NCBI GenBank assembly: GCA_937897085.1
Contig: CALCOR010000290.1
Span: forward strand, 1 to 15,664
Direction of reading: 5' to 3'
Length of the DNA: 15,664 nucleotides
Origin: an uncultured euryarchaeote
GTDB lineage: Archaea > Thermoplasmatota > Poseidoniia > Poseidoniales > Thalassarchaeaceae
Shown: in pieces, positions 3,552 to 11,144 of the stretch
How the letters are laid out: every line of letters begins with the position of its first letter
How positions within the stretch are numbered: position 1 is the first letter of the stretch
Made by a program: the position numbers and the translations under genes
The notes under the pieces: model-generated
What the model was told of the DNA's origin: nothing
Seen by the model: the letters and a program-made list of their open reading frames with translations, nothing else
The model's database searches: none

Positions 3552-4454
3552 CTATAGACCGCTGACAACAGCGACGACCCTCATCCTGCCATCGAGTTCG
3601 TCAGCCATCCTTGCACCGAGGATCACCTGTGAGTCGTCGCTGAACCCGCGGGTGAACGCGTCGGCGACTGAGTTCACCTGAGCGACCGTCATGCGCCTCC
3701 CGCCCTCGATCTGCAGCAGACATCCGGATGCCCCCTCCACCTGAAGCCCGGCGAGCGGGGAGGCGAGCGCCGAGCGGAACAGCGCCTCGGGGTCCGTGGC
3801 ATCCCCCTCAGCTACCAACAATGTGGCCTCTCCGGTGTGGCCGACCACCGCCCTCAGATCCATCAGATCCAGATTGATCAGCCCGACGCGGCCGAGGGTG
3901 AGCACGATGCCCTGCACCAGTTCCTCCACCCATGAGGCATCGCGTCGCCAGTCGGACCCGCGCTCCCGAGCCTGCCACGCGAGTCGGTCGAGCGACAGCC
4001 GCACGCACACATCTGACGCTTCCTCGAGGCGCGGCAAGGCTGACTCTGCCAGATCGCATCTGGCAGGTTGGTCCTCAAAGGGGGAGGCGGCGACCGATAG
4101 CACCAGCGCTCCATTCTGCTTCGCTTGGGCAGCCAGCGCATGCGCGGCACCCGTGCCGGCTCCGCCACCTAGACCTGTCAGCAGCAGCATGAGTTCGACC
4201 GGTGCCAGCATCTGTTCGGTCAGAGGCTTGGCGCGGCGCATGTGCGACTCGGCCAGTTCAGGAAGCGCGGCGCACCCCTGCGATGATGTGTCCCCCAAGG
4301 GAAGACAGTGTGCGTGGCGAGCATCTTCGAACGACCGCTCGTCAGCATCGACAAGCAGCAAATCAGCGTAGTCAGAGCAGTTGTCGTGGGCGCGGCGCGC
4401 CCACAGGCAACCGAGCCCTCCGACTCCCGCCACGAGTATGCTGCCGTCGTGCAT
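3552..4454 (-). CDS. Divergent, short FtsZ/tubulin-superfamily GTPase
   Basis: This 300-aa protein has the full layout of an FtsZ core. The T1 nucleotide loop is GVGGLG (residues 10-15), the tubulin/FtsZ signature is GLGGGAGTGAA (94-104), and a PFEDQPAR segment (125-132) with LSLDRLA (154-160) corresponds to FtsZ's PFxxE..R and NDRLL regions. The T7 catalytic loop is GLINLDLMD (191-199), keeping N194, D196 and D199, which complete the GTPase site of the neighbouring subunit in filaments. The C-terminal domain (SGCLLQIEGG to VVAVVSGL) matches FtsZ's 'KGVLLNITGG ... RVTVIATG'. The protein stops right after this core, so the C-terminal linker and conserved tail peptide that bind FtsA/SepF-type anchors are missing. 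Two cysteines near the N-terminus and several substitutions mark it as divergent. It follows a TPR gene on the same strand by 43 bases. It is probably a polymerising GTPase, but whether it acts in division or shape is inference. Confidence 0.85.
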   Translation of the reverse strand: MHDGSILVAGVGGLGCLWARRAHDNCSDYADLLLVDADERSFEDARHAHCLPLGDTSSQGCAALPELAESHMRRAKPLTEQMLAPVELMLLLTGLGGGAGTGAAHALAAQAKQNGALVLSVAASPFEDQPARCDLAESALPRLEEASDVCVRLSLDRLAWQARERGSDWRRDASWVEELVQGIVLTLGRVGLINLDLMDLRAVVGHTGEATLLVAEGDATDPEALFRSALASPLAGLQVEGASGCLLQIEGGRRMTVAQVNSVADAFTRGFSDDSQVILGARMADELDGRMRVVAVVSGL

Positions 4455-4997: not shown

Positions 4998-5822
4998 ATG
5001 AGCCGTTTGCCAAGCCGTCTCAGACCGCTGTTGGCGGTGGTGTTGCTGACGCTTCTTCTGGCCGGCGCGAGCCAAGCCCGCCCGGGGGGGATAACAGGAG
5101 ATGAGGCCGAGGGTGGAACCGACGTGGCGACCACCGGTTGCACATGTCACACGAACAACGCCATCACCCCCTCGAACTCCGTCACGCTCATCCTCGACGG
5201 GGTTCCGTACCACTGGGCGGCGGGCTCGGCATACGAGTTGACAATCCAACTCATCGGTGGCCCCTCAATCGACACTTCCTCGAACACGGGCGGCTTCTCG
5301 ATGCGCGTCAGCGCAGGTGAACTCTCGGCAGCAGCAGGCTTCGAATCGCTGGTGCAGAACGGTGACGACGCCACCACGCTGACACACACGGCATCAGGAG
5401 CGCTGACCGCTGACCGCACCTGGATGGTGATCTGGACCGCACCTACAGCAGGGTCAGGTGAGGTCGCCATCTGGCTGGCTGGCAACTCGGTCGATGGCAA
5501 TAACGCGGCGATGGCACCCGACTCCTGGAACCGTCTGTCGCTGCCACTCGGTGAAGGCGAGGACGATGGGCGGACCCGCACCGTGTTCGCGGGCGACGGC
5601 AACATCGCCGCTCCTGAAGCGCACTCAGGTGAGCTCGACCTGCACCACATGGGTGCGAAATTCCGCGCTCACTGGCTCGGTCTGCTCGGCTTCGCTGCAG
5701 TCATCTCGGTGATCCTGTTCTGCGGCTTCTTCCTGCGCTTCGGGTTCAGCCGCCACTATGAGGGGCGAAGCAACCTGCTGAAACTGCGCATCAAGCATCT
5801 GAGGAGAGGTGACCAGGTATGA
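4998..5822 (+). CDS. Secreted, membrane-anchored Reelin-like/choice-of-anchor V protein with C-T-C-H motif
   Basis: This 274-aa protein begins with a signal peptide (hydrophobic 9-24, likely cleavage after SQA at 27) and ends with a membrane helix at about 226-246 and a basic cytoplasmic tail. The extracytoplasmic part starts PGGITGDEAEGG and reaches a C-T-C-H motif (C48, C50, H51). A beta-rich domain (about 60-182) follows, with GGFSMRVSAGEL, TWMVIWTAPTAGSG and AIWLAGNSVDGNN. This is the pattern of Reelin-like 'choice-of-anchor V' proteins, whose N-terminus usually has a heme-type C-x-x-C-H; here the spacing is one residue shorter. It is the first gene of the cluster and overlaps the next by four bases (ATGA). 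By position it could serve as the outer redox partner of the Rieske protein or as an assembly/scaffold subunit. Heme binding is not established. Confidence 0.75.
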   Translation: MSRLPSRLRPLLAVVLLTLLLAGASQARPGGITGDEAEGGTDVATTGCTCHTNNAITPSNSVTLILDGVPYHWAAGSAYELTIQLIGGPSIDTSSNTGGFSMRVSAGELSAAAGFESLVQNGDDATTLTHTASGALTADRTWMVIWTAPTAGSGEVAIWLAGNSVDGNNAAMAPDSWNRLSLPLGEGEDDGRTRTVFAGDGNIAAPEAHSGELDLHHMGAKFRAHWLGLLGFAAVISVILFCGFFLRFGFSRHYEGRSNLLKLRIKHLRRGDQV

Positions 5823-6031
5823 GCGACGCCGAGAAACTCGAAGCGTGGAAAGCAGCGCTCGCCGCCCACGTCGACCAGCTCACCGAGAAGCACGTGCGTG
5901 AACGACAAGCGGCACCTGAAGCACCGCCAGCAGAGCGGACGAGTACTCCGGACGACGAAAAACCAGAACAGCTGTCACCTCGAACACCACCTGGATGTGT
6001 GGAGTTGCCCGAAGAAAATCGGAGGTTGTAA
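5819..6031 (+). CDS. Small charged protein of the cytochrome cluster (70 aa)
   Basis: This soluble, highly charged 70-residue protein was not recognised. Residues 1-30 (beginning MSDAEKLEAWKAALAAHVDQ) should form an amphipathic helix. The rest is Pro/Glu/Asp-rich and probably disordered, with one cysteine near the end. Its ATG overlaps the stop of the previous gene as ATGA, and it ends one base before the next start. This translational coupling is the best evidence that it is real. An overlapping frame beginning at 5898 is only an upstream extension of the next gene. It may be a cluster-specific assembly factor or peripheral subunit, which is inference from position only. Confidence 0.6.
   Translation: MSDAEKLEAWKAALAAHVDQLTEKHVRERQAAPEAPPAERTSTPDDEKPEQLSPRTPPGCVELPEENRRL
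6021..6026 (+). promoter_or_regulatory. Strong ribosome binding site that fixes the start at 6033
   Basis: GGAGGT lies six bases before the ATG at 6033. It overlaps the end of the 70-aa gene and decides against the longer in-frame start at 5898. Confidence 0.8.
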
Positions 6032-6032
6032 G

Positions 6033-6482
6033 ATGAAGCGGGACATGGTCGTGAAACTGCTGGAGCAGGTAGCCAGCGGCGATGTCAGTGTGGAGGACGC
6101 CCGAGCAGCATTGGATGGAGTGGAACTTGACGAGGACACCTACATTTCGGCGCTCGATCATGGTGTGTTCAACGAACCTGATCCGGGCACTATCGTCAGG
6201 GCGAGCATGTCTCCGACCGGCGAGTCAGCATTGGTCGTGCTCACCTTCGTCTGGGGATTGGCGTGGACGCTCTACTGGGCAGGGGCAACGACCTACGGGT
6301 TGTTCGCTGACTGGAATCAGCAGTTACTCTCATTCTTCTTCGGGATGACGATGGTGACGCTGATCATCATGGGTATCGTCTACCTGAAGTGGGTCATGCC
6401 CGATGTCGTCATCGTCAAGCATCGGCGAAACAAGTACATGAGCCAGAAGGACCCTGACAGCTGGTTCGATTACAAGGTGTGA
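6033..6482 (+). CDS. Two-TM membrane protein of the cytochrome cluster (149 aa)
   Basis: The start is set by GGAGGT six bases upstream. The N-terminus (VVKLLEQVASGDVSVEDARA, residues 5-24) resembles the short 'leucine - basic/polar - S/T-x-E-E-A' helical segments of SHOCT-like or SHOCT-related domains, which mediate oligomerisation or membrane-proximal contacts. Two hydrophobic helices follow, near residues 68-90 (VVLTFVWGLAWTLYWAGATTYG) and 99-121 (LLSFFFGMTMVTLIIMGIVYL). The C-terminus is short and basic, with VKHRRNKYMSQKDPDSWFDY. Three bases separate it from the Rieske gene. It is likely an accessory subunit of the quinol-oxidising complex, in a role like that of the small helices of b6f. 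No homologous family could be named with confidence. Confidence 0.7.
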   Translation: MKRDMVVKLLEQVASGDVSVEDARAALDGVELDEDTYISALDHGVFNEPDPGTIVRASMSPTGESALVVLTFVWGLAWTLYWAGATTYGLFADWNQQLLSFFFGMTMVTLIIMGIVYLKWVMPDVVIVKHRRNKYMSQKDPDSWFDYKV

Positions 6483-6485
6483 GAC

Positions 6486-7361
6486 ATGGCGCGTGAATTC
6501 CGACTACGTAAATCGCCATGGTCACCAGAGGGCGAAGTCGAGACGGGACAGGTGCTCGACCGGCGTCAGTTCATTCGCTACTCGTTCAACAGCGCCGCCG
6601 GCGTGATCACCGCCATCAGCCTCGGTGCCATCGGCTTCGCTTCGCTGCTCATGGGAGAATCGGGATCCGGCGGGGGCGATTCGGCAATCCGCTTCTGGGT
6701 GCCAAAGGGTTCCGAGGACAGTGTGTGGTACGGTGACCAGCACCTCGAGTCGATGACCGAATCGGGATTCAAGGATGAGGCGGGGAGGTCAACAACCGGC
6801 ATGTCAGGCGCCTCGGGCGTCTGGTCGGGGTTGCCGGTGAATGTCGTCTACATCCCGCATGAGGAGAACAAGAATCTCCCACCGATGCAGAACAAGCCGA
6901 GAATCCAGTTCATGGATGGCGTCGACCAGACCGGTGCCATCATCGGCTACGGCGGCGATATGGAGGAGGACTCGGCATATGCCGCGCTCAAGGTGAGCAA
7001 CAACATCCTGGTCATCTTCGGCCGCTGCCCGCATCTCTGCTGCATCCCCGGCTGGCAGCTCATCGAGAACAACTTCACCGCCGACAACTGGGAGCCGGGC
7101 GGCCTCGACTCAGGGGGCAACAAACTGTTCTGCATCTGCCACTCCAGCCGCTACGACCCCACCGTCGTAGAGAAGAACACCAACCGCAACCGCGCCAGTG
7201 GGACGGTGTTCCAATACTTCGGAATCAAGCGGACCGGAGGTCCGACACCTGTCGGAATGCCACTCATCCCGTTCACCGTGAACAACGATGTCATCGAGGT
7301 CGTCGACTTCAAGGCTGAGGGGATCGAAGCGATGCTCGACTGGTACACATATTGCGATTGA
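6486..7361 (+). CDS. Rieske [2Fe-2S] protein, Tat-anchored
   Basis: This is the high-potential electron acceptor of the quinol-oxidising complex. Residues 25-31 (DRRQFIR) form a twin-arginine motif just before a membrane helix at about 35-56, as expected for Rieske proteins folded before Tat export. The cluster-binding boxes are CPHLCC (181-186) and CICHSSRYD (216-224). By family rules the ligands are C181, H183, C216 and H219, with a C186-C218 disulfide. S221 and Y223, whose counterparts raise the midpoint potential in characterised Rieske proteins, are kept. Box I is unusual: the Gly of CTHLGC is Cys185, giving an additional cysteine. The 291-aa length is larger than b6f or mitochondrial Rieske, mainly from an inserted stretch between the anchor and box I (about 58-170). 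It sits directly before the cytochrome b gene, as in Rieske/cytb operons. Confidence 0.93.
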   Translation: MAREFRLRKSPWSPEGEVETGQVLDRRQFIRYSFNSAAGVITAISLGAIGFASLLMGESGSGGGDSAIRFWVPKGSEDSVWYGDQHLESMTESGFKDEAGRSTTGMSGASGVWSGLPVNVVYIPHEENKNLPPMQNKPRIQFMDGVDQTGAIIGYGGDMEEDSAYAALKVSNNILVIFGRCPHLCCIPGWQLIENNFTADNWEPGGLDSGGNKLFCICHSSRYDPTVVEKNTNRNRASGTVFQYFGIKRTGGPTPVGMPLIPFTVNNDVIEVVDFKAEGIEAMLDWYTYCD

Positions 7362-7367
7362 GGGGTG
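7362..7367 (+). promoter_or_regulatory. Ribosome binding site deciding the cytochrome b start
   Basis: GGGGTG lies six bases before ATG 7374. The alternative GTG start at 7365 would fall inside this site, so ATG 7374 is favoured. Confidence 0.55.
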
Positions 7368-7373
7368 AGTGAG

Positions 7374-8240
7374 ATGATACTGCAATTCTGGTTCCTGTGG
7401 CTGTTCATCGCGCTGATTGTAGTGCTAGTAGCCTTCACCCTGCGTAAGGAGAGCGAGGAGATGCCGCGCAAGGAGATTCTGCGCGCTGTCGAAGCATCCA
7501 CGAAGATGGGGCTGGCGGAGAAACTGTTCCTGTGGGTGTTCTCCTGGCTAGACACCCGTTTCCGCATCCAGGATTACTGGGCGATGAGCCGCGACGCTTA
7601 CCACAGCATGCACCGACAGATGCCGATGACGCATGCCGAGAAGTACAAACTGCGCATCATCTGGTACTGGTATCCACTCTACTGCCTCGGTGGAATCTCC
7701 TTCCTGGCGTTCATCCTGCTGATCATCACCGGCACTGTGCTCGGAATATACTACGTTCCGGGAGGAGAGGGCGACCCGAGTCCTGCCTACGGCAGCATGC
7801 AGTTCATCATGACACAGTTGCCGTTCGGCTACATCATGCGCTCGCTGCACCACTGGGGGACGCACTTCATGGTCGCCTCTGTGTTCCTGCATATGTGCCG
7901 CGTCTACTTCACCGGCGCCTACCGCAACCCCCGAGAACTCAACTGGCTCATCGGGGTCGGCCTGATGTTCTTCACCATCTTCTTCGGTTACTCGGGCTAT
8001 CTGCTCCCATGGGATGCACTCGCCTTCGGCGCCGCCACCATCGGCATCAACATGGCGAACTCGACGCCATTGATCGGTGGATGGGTCGCTAGAGCGTTGT
8101 TCGGGGGGACCAGCCTGTCGGGGGCGACCGTGACCCGGATGTACTTCCTGCACGTGTTCATCCTGCCCGTCATCGTTACAGCACTGATCATCGTGCACCT
8201 GTTCATCGTCTGGGTACAAGGGATAGCGGAGCCACATTGA
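7374..8240 (+). CDS. Cytochrome b6-like subunit (N-terminal half of cytochrome b)
   Basis: This is the four-helix heme-bearing half of a split, b6f-type cytochrome b. Numbering from ATG 7374 (288 aa), the heme ligands are H159 and H173 in helix B (RSLHHWGTH, then FLHMCRVYFTG) and H260 and H275 in helix D. The spacing is 13 residues in helix B and 14 in helix D, and 14 is the b6f-type value. The stretches YCLGGI (helix A), YRNPREL and GYLLPWD are near-identical to plastid b6 sequences. C104 in YCLGG aligns with the b6 cysteine that covalently holds heme c(n)/c(i) at the Qn site. An extra N-terminal helix (1-21) and a roughly 70-residue basic segment precede helix A and are not present in b6. 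A GTG at 7365 would add three residues. The second cytochrome b half is the next gene. Confidence 0.93.
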   Translation: MILQFWFLWLFIALIVVLVAFTLRKESEEMPRKEILRAVEASTKMGLAEKLFLWVFSWLDTRFRIQDYWAMSRDAYHSMHRQMPMTHAEKYKLRIIWYWYPLYCLGGISFLAFILLIITGTVLGIYYVPGGEGDPSPAYGSMQFIMTQLPFGYIMRSLHHWGTHFMVASVFLHMCRVYFTGAYRNPRELNWLIGVGLMFFTIFFGYSGYLLPWDALAFGAATIGINMANSTPLIGGWVARALFGGTSLSGATVTRMYFLHVFILPVIVTALIIVHLFIVWVQGIAEPH

Positions 8241-8249
8241 GGGATAGTC

Positions 8250-11144
8250 ATGGGTTTGATGGACAACTTCGGGCGCATCGCTGACGTCTACATCCGCGAA
8301 AAGGAGCAGCTGCGCGACTCTGAGAAGGAGCGCCGCAGGGTGTTCACGGGGCATCCGTTCTGGCCGCACGAGGTGTTGCGTGACAGCATCATCTTCGCCG
8401 CCATGATGGCAGTGCTCCTGTTCTATTCGTGGATCATCCCGCCGCCGCTGCACATCTCCGCCGATCCGTTCGCTCAGGCGGGATTCGTGTTCCCTGATTG
8501 GTACGTGCTGTTCTCCTACGGATACCTCCGCTGGGGTGAGTACCTGCCGCAGTTCGACATCCCGCTGCCGAGCATCATCGGGAACTTCTTCGGCAGCCCG
8601 ATCATCTCCTGGAACGCAGGCTGGTGGGGGGCCTTCCTGACCGGATTCCCTGTTGGGATCCTGGCGCTGCCGCCGTTCCTCGGGGGGCGTGCCAAACGGG
8701 GTGTGGAAGACCCGTGGTTCGCCACCGCCGGGGCGATCTACCTGGCGCACGTATGGTTCATCTCAGTCTATTCGATCAACATCTTCCTCGACATCTACAA
8801 CAAGAACCGCTCCGACTACTGCCTGCACAACACGCATGCAGGATTGAGTTGTGGTGTCCGCGAACCGTGGGTGGCCGACCTGTTCAACGCCGCTCCATGG
8901 ATCTTGACTGGGATCTTCATTTGGGTGACGCTCTACTTCGCGATCCGCTGGTTCCTAGTCACGTCAGCGGGAGCCAGGACGACTCCTCGACTCGGGAAAC
9001 AGGTCGCCGTGGGCACCTTGCTGGTGACTGTGCTGTTTTCCGCGTTCGCCTGGCCCGTGTATGACAACGGTTTCTGGGATCTCGGTGGGTTCGGCGCCAT
9101 GGACGACGTCGATGATCTAGCCACGATGCGCGGCCAGCCTTCTGACACGCTCGTGGCCATCGAAGAGGGGCACGACTGGGATGATTTGCAGACGGCCTGC
9201 CTGACCTATGCGGACAGTGGAGAGAACGCGGTGTGGGATGACAAGATGTTCAGCGGGGACGATGCCCAGGACAGAGACGATTGGTGCCTGATACCTGCGA
9301 ATCGCTGGCTCGATTGGACGATTCACCAACCGACTCAGAAACAGATTATCGATTTCTCCGACGCAAACAACCACCAGCAGGTGCACACCGTTGCCGGAGA
9401 GGTGACCAGCGGTACGAACGCGTTGAGCGATTCCTACCAGTCCAACGGAACTCACAGCACCAGCCGCACATACGCGATGGTCATCGAGGACCTCGGACTG
9501 GAGACTGCCGAGGTGGACCTCGGCTGCACCTTCCGCACGAGCACGCGTAAGGCGGGCGACCACACGCTCGGCCTTTCGGTCAGTGATTCTGCGGGCAAGG
9601 TGGTCGCATCGCTGGCGGGCAACCCCGAGGAAGGCTCGACCTGTGTGACGCGCACAGTTCACCTCGCTCCGGGCGCATACACGGTTGACTTCACAATCGA
9701 TTCCACCTTCAACACCCCGGAGAACTCCAATGTCACAGTCGATGCCTCCTCCTCCGTGCTGGCCTTCCAGCCGCTGTTCCTCGATTCAGACACCGGGATG
9801 GCTGTTGACCGCGGCACCACCAACCTCGATGACGCTGCCCTGATGGCGCTGACGGTGGAGAACCCCACCTACCATCGAAACCCGAAGAGCCTCGACGCCA
9901 AACTGACCTACTCCCTGTTCATTCCCTGCCTGGGAGTCGGTGCGGTCGTCTACGTCACCATGCGCGGCATGGCGCGCGGCTACGAGTATGAGATGAACAA
10001 GTGCTACGGGTGCGACCTGTGCGACGACGCCTGTCCGGTGCGCATGTTCAACGCCTGTGACAAGCTGAACATCATCTACAACACCTGGAACAACGAACAC
10101 GACGGCGTACCGATGTACTCCTGCCTCACCTGTGGTGCATGCACCAATGCCTGTCCGCAGTTGGTCGACTACGATACCTACGTCGACATCCGTCGCAACC
10201 TCGTAGTGGGTGGCCCTCCGGAAGCGGATATCCCCCACTCCGTGCTCTCAGCGGTGATGATCGCTGAGGCAGAGGAGGAGTTCGATGACGACTTCATCTC
10301 GGTGGAGGACTACCCGATCGACTCCAACGTCGGTTACTACGGAGGGTGCGTCGACTACTTCGACCAGGAGATGATCTTCAGCCACAAGAACCACGGCGCG
10401 ATGAATCTCGGTGAGACGACCACGGCGGCGTTCACCCTGTTCGAGGAGGCGGACCTGGATGTGTCATATCTTGGGCGTGACTTCCTCAAGTGCAGCGGGC
10501 ACGACCAGAAGTGGCAGGGCATGACAGAGGTGTTCGAGAAGTTGAGGGACTACAACCAGAAGAAACTCAAGCAGACCGGCATCGACACGCTGGTCACCAG
10601 CTGCGCCGAGTGTTTCAGGACGTTCTCACTCGATTACGAACTCGACATGAAGGTGATGCACACCACCGAGTATCTCATCGAGAACGGCTACGAAGTGGAC
10701 CTCGCCGTCGAAGATGAGACGAAGGTCACCTTCCACGACCCCTGTCGGCTCGGACGCCACATGAACCTCTACGAGCCACCGCGCGACCTCATCAAGGCTG
10801 TCAAGGGTGTGGAGTTGGTCGAGATGGAGCACAACCGCGAGGAGGGTGGCTGCTGCGGAGTGTCAGCGATGCAGTCATGCAACGAGGACAGTCGCATCGT
10901 ACGTATCGCCCGCTTCGAGGAGGTGCTGGCAACGGGTGCGGACATGATGCTCACCAGTTGTCCGAAGTGCGTGGCGCACTTCGAGTGCCTCAAGTTCGAG
11001 GGTGACCCGAGATACGACTTCGAGATCCTCGATGTGGTATCCTTCCTCGCTCGTCAGGTCGACGAGAAGAAGGCCGCAGGGGCTGAAGCAATCCAACTCG
11101 GCAGCGAAGAAGTAAGCAGCACTTCGGTCGAAGCGAGCAGCTGA
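8250..11144 (+). CDS. Fusion: cytochrome b C-terminal half (subunit IV-like) + extracytoplasmic domain + HdrD-like Fe-S module
   Basis: This 964-aa fusion protein is preceded by GAGGGA seven bases before its ATG. Residues 35-240 resemble b6f subunit IV: PFWPHEVLRD, helix E (45-63), the Qo motif PDWY (82-85, replacing PEWY), and helices at about 125-142, 155-181 and 217-237. A loop at 191-201 has C-x-H-x2-H-x4-C. A further helix (253-272) leads to a roughly 280-residue beta-rich extracytoplasmic domain with cysteines 317, 346, 426 and 465. A last helix (552-571) returns the chain to the cytoplasm. There, two [4Fe-4S] motifs (C585/588/591/595 and C625/628/631/635) and two CCG-type domains follow, as in HdrD/GlpC. 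The second is intact (C832, CCG 868-870, C904, C907). The first has CSG (748-750). Basic loops (RAKR 147-150; RTTPRLGK 243-250) fall on the cytoplasmic side. It probably connects quinone chemistry to a cytoplasmic redox partner; direction and partner are unknown. Confidence 0.9.
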   Translation: MGLMDNFGRIADVYIREKEQLRDSEKERRRVFTGHPFWPHEVLRDSIIFAAMMAVLLFYSWIIPPPLHISADPFAQAGFVFPDWYVLFSYGYLRWGEYLPQFDIPLPSIIGNFFGSPIISWNAGWWGAFLTGFPVGILALPPFLGGRAKRGVEDPWFATAGAIYLAHVWFISVYSINIFLDIYNKNRSDYCLHNTHAGLSCGVREPWVADLFNAAPWILTGIFIWVTLYFAIRWFLVTSAGARTTPRLGKQVAVGTLLVTVLFSAFAWPVYDNGFWDLGGFGAMDDVDDLATMRGQPSDTLVAIEEGHDWDDLQTACLTYADSGENAVWDDKMFSGDDAQDRDDWCLIPANRWLDWTIHQPTQKQIIDFSDANNHQQVHTVAGEVTSGTNALSDSYQSNGTHSTSRTYAMVIEDLGLETAEVDLGCTFRTSTRKAGDHTLGLSVSDSAGKVVASLAGNPEEGSTCVTRTVHLAPGAYTVDFTIDSTFNTPENSNVTVDASSSVLAFQPLFLDSDTGMAVDRGTTNLDDAALMALTVENPTYHRNPKSLDAKLTYSLFIPCLGVGAVVYVTMRGMARGYEYEMNKCYGCDLCDDACPVRMFNACDKLNIIYNTWNNEHDGVPMYSCLTCGACTNACPQLVDYDTYVDIRRNLVVGGPPEADIPHSVLSAVMIAEAEEEFDDDFISVEDYPIDSNVGYYGGCVDYFDQEMIFSHKNHGAMNLGETTTAAFTLFEEADLDVSYLGRDFLKCSGHDQKWQGMTEVFEKLRDYNQKKLKQTGIDTLVTSCAECFRTFSLDYELDMKVMHTTEYLIENGYEVDLAVEDETKVTFHDPCRLGRHMNLYEPPRDLIKAVKGVELVEMEHNREEGGCCGVSAMQSCNEDSRIVRIARFEEVLATGADMMLTSCPKCVAHFECLKFEGDPRYDFEILDVVSFLARQVDEKKAAGAEAIQLGSEEVSSTSVEASS

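Follow-up and report, generated by a model that had tools for sequence, protein, structure and literature searches.

A subunit IV-like chain fused to an HdrCB-type iron-sulfur module in the Rieske/cytochrome b6 gene cluster of Marine Group II archaea

Introduction

EtfD/Emo, an ETF:menaquinone oxidoreductase, joins a five-helix cytochrome b to an HdrD-like module, and from its structure a linear [3Fe-4S] cluster and a ligating histidine have been assigned to positions at its CCG sites (PDB 9ojn; excerpted text of PMC13083937). In anammox, the Rieske/b6/subunit-IV complexes include a putative NAD(P) oxidoreductase on their cytoplasmic side, and a bifurcating output toward NAD(P)+ has been proposed for anammox Rieske/cytochrome b complexes (excerpted text of PMC12954380). 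In the b6f complex of plants and algae, heme cn, whose propionate is held by Arg207, has been proposed as the path of ferredoxin electrons to quinone (excerpted text of PMC9342900). A first-pass annotation of the DNA analysed here had stated that known systems keep cytochrome b and HdrD apart, which EtfD/Emo contradicts, and that bc/b6f complexes carry no such module, which overlooked the cytoplasmic redox module of the anammox complexes.

Marine Group II (MGII) archaea have been described as globally abundant and as having "a cytochrome b and a Rieske protein" in the place of a canonical bc1, RnfB without the rest of Rnf, and a complex I that was called canonical; the fusion described below is unmentioned in the excerpt of that paper (PMC6336850). 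The literature searched, which comprised titles, the beginnings of abstracts and parts of PMC4683180 and PMC9478090 and extended to neither preprints nor most subscription papers, yielded no description of HdrCB on a b6/subunit-IV complex. Thus, the combination of a cytochrome b with an HdrD-like module is already known from EtfD/Emo and a cytoplasmic module on a Rieske/b6 complex has been proposed for anammox; what is new is a Rieske/b6 complex combined with HdrCB.

Results

The window, by which we mean the whole stretch of 15,664 nucleotides analysed, comes from a genome of 1.87 Mb that is 85% complete and holds a Rieske/b6 gene cluster on its plus strand (Table 1). The fusion gene in it is one open reading frame with an ATG start. 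A profile built from 33 relatives of its product for comparison with the PDB matched b6f subunit IV (2e74_B, E 7e-5, profile positions 31-97), HdrC (5odc_C, E 7.9e-6), HdrB (8rvv_B, E 0.003) and EtfD (9ojn_A, E 3.6e-34, the strongest PDB match of the module), all along a single chain. In the Pfam scan, the window's fusion protein itself had no match to PF00032, the cut-off of which was exceeded by two more distant fusions, and it carried Fer4 dicluster motifs at residues 581-637 and two CCG stretches, the best at 826-911; its best NCBIfam match was TfrB (thiol:fumarate reductase), below the cut-off. By hydropathy, five helices are followed by an acidic stretch of 281 residues and a sixth helix, after which comes the Fe-S module, predicted to be cytoplasmic; basic loops lie at 146-157 and 227-251. 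These results agree with the first-pass reading of the protein in its main features: one frame joins the subunit IV-like part, with its PDWY motif and predicted helices, to a module with the two ferredoxin motifs and two CCG domains of HdrD, and the predicted topology has basic loops inside and a helix returning before the module. In the predicted structure, the ferredoxin part of the module has a pLDDT below 50, for which reason distances from the module to heme cn are not readable from the model.

Table 1. Coordinates of the fusion gene, its parts and neighbouring genes (window positions unless a locus is given)
Feature	Position	Strand	Basis or remark
Choice-of-anchor V protein, head of cluster	4998..5822	+	NF041895 over cut-off; syntenic in relatives
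Small membrane protein, DUF7318-like	5898..6482	+	26.9 bits, cut-off 27
Rieske protein	6486..7361	+	TIGR01416 E 6e-9, under cut-off; CPHLCC / CICHSS read in sequence
Cytochrome b6	7365..8240	+	1q90_B E 1.6e-42; heme histidines, heme-cn-type Cys107
Fusion gene: subunit-IV-like + extracytoplasmic domain + HdrC-like + HdrB-like	8250..11144	+	964 aa
Membrane part, residues 1-270, five predicted helices, subunit-IV-like	8250..9059	+	Hydropathy, profile match
PDWY Qo-type motif, residues 82-85	8493..8504	+	71/72 rows, one gap
Extracytoplasmic acidic domain, residues 271-551, predicted beta-sandwich	9060..9902	+	Absent from f22, f25 fusions
Last helix, residues 552-570, back to cytoplasm (predicted)	9903..9959	+	Hydropathy
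Two [4Fe-4S] ferredoxin motifs, HdrC-like, Cys 585-635	10002..10154	+	Pfam; eight cysteines 72/72
First CCG motif, Cys 700 to Cys 788	10347..10613	+	Ser749 where 71/72 have Cys
Second CCG domain, residues 826-911, motif complete	10725..10982	+	Pfam, alignment
Dicluster ferredoxin, 110 aa	11212..11544	+	Pfam/NCBIfam scans; 58/58 MGII genomes sampled
Small protein, two predicted helices	11541..11861	+	Hydropathy; relatives near fusion
HdrA-like protein directly after f25 fusion	L070:757-2292, L062:5435-6379

Some match to the fusion was found in 325 of the 389 genomes of a phylum sample. For families f1 and f2, taken here as MGII, 122 of 126 genomes match at E 1e-100 or better, by a hand count among the matches listed, in which genomes without a match appear only in part. 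A scan of named genomes, mostly Ca. Poseidoniales and Marine Group II, yielded 80 loci, and the domain order sought in other archaeal genomes was found as one fused open reading frame in 76 of them (71 complete and five cut by contig ends), by which an assembly join or a chance fusion is ruled out. Three of the remaining loci start inside the gene, and one (L091) is frame-broken, being the sole named locus with the cytochrome and Fe-S parts out of one frame. A b6 frame lies within 17 bases of the fusion or overlaps it at 69 of the 80 loci, and a ferredoxin-like frame within 500 bases at 70. Sequence comparison therefore strongly supports the fusion architecture and its conservation.

Cysteine counts were made from 72 complete fusion proteins, i.e., those of the 71 complete named loci and the window's own. 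The expectation that all cysteines are kept is borne out for 17 of the 18 cluster ligands (all eight of the ferredoxin part and nine of the ten of the CCG sites), which are invariant, and fails for the last one: position 749, in the first CCG motif, is Cys in 71 proteins and Ser in the window alone (codon AGC, 10494-10496), where it may represent natural variation or a sequence error. The five cysteines per CCG site that characterize HdrD are accordingly complete in the other 71 proteins. The corresponding site is also Ser in one of three sister-order loci and Cys in the other two. Beyond the ligands, Cys 877 and Cys 913 are invariant in all 72, as is Glu787, which stands in the place of the CPHC histidine of EtfD, so that the CCG signatures of the fusion read CCGHD (71/72) and CAEC.

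The Rieske gene product had no match in the Pfam scan. Cytochrome b6 of the window is closest to b6f cytochrome b6 (1q90_B), and its residues were counted over 70 rows (the window, 67 complete loci and two sister-order genes). His162, 176, 263 and 278, which we take to correspond to the heme ligands of b6 from the alignment to 1q90_B and from the residue numbering of b6, are invariant, and the heme-cn-type Cys107, which aligns with YC(L/I)GG of 1q90_B and 2zt9_A, is present in 69 rows and replaced by Ser in the sister-order locus L063. The place of b6f Arg207 holds Trp in 68 rows and Tyr in two, and the arginine is found in none. The subunit IV homologue with a P-x-W-Y Qo motif that belongs to a b6-type complex is provided by the fusion itself (2e74_B match, PDWY). 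Among the cluster proteins scanned (Pfam, NCBIfam), there was no cytochrome c1 or f and no NAD(P)/FAD oxidoreductase domain; an HdrE-type cytochrome partner was likewise absent from the locus, where the neighbour is b6 and the fused membrane part is subunit-IV-like. The compared relatives of the DUF7318-like protein align from residue 46 onward. Convergent with the cluster lies a glutamate-cysteine ligase GshA (PF08886; 11870-13108, minus strand), and at its position in L066, L068 and L071 there are frames of about 410 aa, matched by size and place only.

Outside MGII the architecture varies. Three loci were read in the sister order, family f3 of the same class, which we take to be Marine Group III: downstream of b6 comes a gene whose product stops behind the ferredoxin part, and the CCG part is encoded by the next gene, the two overlapping by four bases in L063. 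The occurrence of parts of the fusion in unrelated loci, which the first-pass annotation had named as the finding that would speak against it, was not seen here, as the split falls between the ferredoxin and CCG parts, in adjoining genes of the same cluster. In another class, that of f22 and f25, the fusion occurs in three of the five genomes sampled, is shorter (789 residues in f22, nzgw66; 606 in f25, CSMAG) and has no extracytoplasmic domain. The b6 chain of f22 and f25 has N-terminal Ig-like (Big_5) domains (L061:9086-10975, L062:788-3613), whereas in MGII it is the fusion that bears an extracytoplasmic domain. A 273-residue ferredoxin lies downstream of the f22 fusion, while that of f25 is followed by an HdrA-like protein, which in G041 has 511 residues and a FlpD domain and in G035 shows only its front at the contig end; an Hdr-Rieske/b6 supercomplex is therefore possible in f25. 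A tree was computed from 50 Fe-S modules: 15 of MGII, the window's among them, those of f22 and f25, a pair from the sister order, eight Emo and 24 further modules of the phylum, which include L038, the f25 fragment of G041. All fusion modules group with L038 on a single branch (100/100), separate from Emo and from the other 23. The tree covers a subset of the fetched proteins and contains long branches, and the order within the fusion clade is unsure.

As for electron carriers, orthologues of the cluster ferredoxin are found at E below 1e-32 in all 58 MGII genomes sampled, and in f3 there are matches at E 2e-14 or better in 18 of 21 genomes, weak ones in two and none in one. Of the f2 genomes looked at, G130 and G136 have this gene on the opposite strand, and G015 has it at a distance of about 14 kb. 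Its best NCBIfam match is RnfB, below the cut-off, and it may be the RnfB previously reported for MGII (excerpt of PMC6336850). The gamma domain of 2-oxoacid:ferredoxin oxidoreductase (PF01558) occurs in 55/58 MGII genomes and in 8/21 f3 genomes, several of which are incomplete. NuoF (PF01512) is found in only 6/58 MGII and 1/21 f3 genomes. Complex I therefore seems to be without an NADH module in most genomes of the class, and these 7/79 genomes with NuoF are, for most genomes, at odds with the "canonical" MGII complex I (excerpt of PMC6336850). Given the rarity of NuoF in MGII and the presence of the ferredoxin in all MGII genomes sampled and of the gamma domain in nearly all, ferredoxin is likely to be a main carrier.

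Discussion

We favour the interpretation, at a probability of about 40%, that the fusion is the subunit-IV-like part of the Rieske/b6 quinol-oxidising complex of MGII and that ferredoxin feeds the heme cn side of this complex through HdrCB. The complex would oxidise quinol at its PDWY/Rieske site, like other Rieske/cytochrome b complexes, while a reduced cytoplasmic carrier, most likely the adjoining dicluster ferredoxin, would donate to the clusters of the module, from which electrons would pass to heme cn/bN of b6 and on to quinone at Qn. A single complex would then do the work of a ferredoxin:quinone reductase as well as that of complex III, and the path from ferredoxin to heme cn that has been proposed for b6f in cyclic electron flow would here have a hard-wired counterpart. 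This interpretation is favoured by the conserved fusion, by the b6 and ferredoxin genes beside it at most loci, by the heme histidines and the heme-cn-type cysteine that b6 keeps, by the probable place of ferredoxin as a main carrier and by the fact that electrons from ETF are probably served by Emo or FixC in most genomes. Against it, a plain ferredoxin wire would not need CCG sites of the HdrB type, the arginine of heme cn is replaced by Trp or Tyr in all b6 rows, the ferredoxin gene is displaced or inverted in the f2 genomes named above, PF01558 is found in a minority of the sister-order genomes, incomplete as several of them are, and the ferredoxin part of the model is of low confidence. 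Whichever the direction, the fused module is probably a second route by which cytoplasmic electrons enter or leave the quinol-oxidising complex.

The likeness of the module to EtfD, its best PDB match, and the presence of EtfA in 75 of 79 class genomes raise the question of whether it takes electrons from ETF, as EtfD/Emo does, which we regard as highly improbable. Strong matches to a separate Emo occur in 51 of 58 MGII genomes, and G086 carries a fragment; FixC-type ETF-QO has strong matches in only four of the 79 genomes (G070, G109, G106 and G161), none of them with Emo, and PF05187 scores above its cut-off in G070, G109 and G106 and slightly below it in G161. The two enzymes look mutually exclusive in MGII, with 51 genomes and one fragment against four, and two genomes with neither. 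The fusion gene does not lie beside etfBA in the window, and the gene that does so in the sister order, coding for a 663-residue Emo-like protein directly before etfB-etfA, is an Emo paralogue. The ligands differ as well: Emo has C-S-G and CPHC in the three MGII copies read and C-N-G in those of the sister order, like EtfD, whereas the Thr, Asn or Ser of the first CCG site and the CPHC histidine are replaced in the fusion by Cys749 (71/72) and Glu787 (72/72). Because most genomes have a separate Emo or FixC and the fusion has CCGHD and Glu instead of the EtfD ligands, it is probably not the ETF port. The case is weaker in the window's genome, since neither Emo nor FixC was found there, at 85% completeness, nor in G185, and Ser749 matches half of the EtfD/Emo signature.

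A different role is suggested by the CCG sites, which carry the Hdr-type cysteine set, without the Thr or His of EtfD: they could oxidise a cytoplasmic thiol pair or reduce a disulfide, exchanging electrons with quinone through b6 in a Rieske-linked analogue of HdrDE. The TfrB match, the HdrA-like neighbour in f25 and the GshA gene adjoining the cluster in the window point the same way; one Hdr ligand, however, is lost in the window and in one of three sister-order loci, no frame of about 410 aa lies beside the fusion in the stretch read of G015 (f2), and we know of no thiol substrate in these archaea. This chemistry is unlikely on balance and stays alive because of the cysteine sets in 71 of 72 proteins and the f25 neighbour. 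Electrons might instead flow outward: after bifurcation at Qo, the Rieske electron would go on to oxygen, while its low-potential partner would travel by way of bP, bN and the module to an acceptor in the cytoplasm, either ferredoxin or a disulfide. The HdrA-like protein of f25 would fit such a flow, and the same layout of b6, subunit IV, cytoplasmic redox module and heme cN in anammox, where bifurcating output has been proposed for NAD(P)+, keeps the reverse direction alive (excerpt of PMC12954380); very low heme potentials would be required, however, and 2-oxoacid:ferredoxin oxidoreductases can supply reduced ferredoxin in nearly all MGII genomes, which makes it quite unlikely. That the module is structural or regulatory, without net electron flow, would accord with the ligand lost in the window and is made very improbable by the 17 invariant ligand cysteines. 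Ferredoxin input thus remains the favoured reading, and disulfide chemistry and outward bifurcating flow are less so. More broadly, at somewhat less than even odds, this may be an undescribed class of Rieske/b6 complexes with HdrCB wired to heme cn/Qn, which exchanges electrons among quinol, the high-potential Rieske chain and cytoplasmic ferredoxin or disulfide and which, with the HdrA-like protein of f25, could form a membrane-bound supercomplex able to bifurcate or confurcate.

Set beside the systems from which we started, the fusion shares with EtfD/Emo a cytochrome b membrane part, two [4Fe-4S] and two CCG domains in one chain, but EtfD has its own heme b in the membrane part, and Thr539 and His583 at the CCG sites, where the fusion has a subunit-IV-like membrane part beside b6 and Rieske, and Cys and Glu (excerpt of PMC13083937). 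The anammox complexes (Kustd1480-1485, Kuste4569-4574) are of the same b6/subunit-IV type and are alike in Rieske protein, in heme cN and in having a putative redox module on the cytoplasmic side; their module, however, would be an FAD-containing NAD(P) oxidoreductase, accompanied by multiheme cytochromes c, and that of MGII is HdrCB fused to the subunit-IV-like chain (excerpt of PMC12954380). HdrDE and HdrBC have the same order of HdrC and HdrB and the same cysteine sets, although the cytochrome partner of HdrDE is HdrE and that of the fusion is a b6/subunit-IV pair with Rieske. With b6f and its bound ferredoxin/FNR the likeness is the proposed n-side electron entry through heme cn, but there the donor docks transiently, and in the fusion the iron-sulfur wire is part of the subunit and the heme-cn arginine is replaced (excerpt of PMC9342900).

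Complex III of Marine Group II gains a concrete composition from these results, and a second, cytoplasmic electron port is predicted for it. Two respiratory modules, Rieske/b6 and Hdr, are combined in one chain. The route from ferredoxin to heme cn that has been proposed for b6f would here be fixed genetically, by which n-side feeding through Fe-S clusters becomes directly testable. Elsewhere in the window, the minus-strand gene at 3552-4454 codes for a divergent protein of the FtsZ/tubulin family, which is above both Pfam cut-offs and, with 131 of 295 bits, far below the FtsZ equivalog cut-off.
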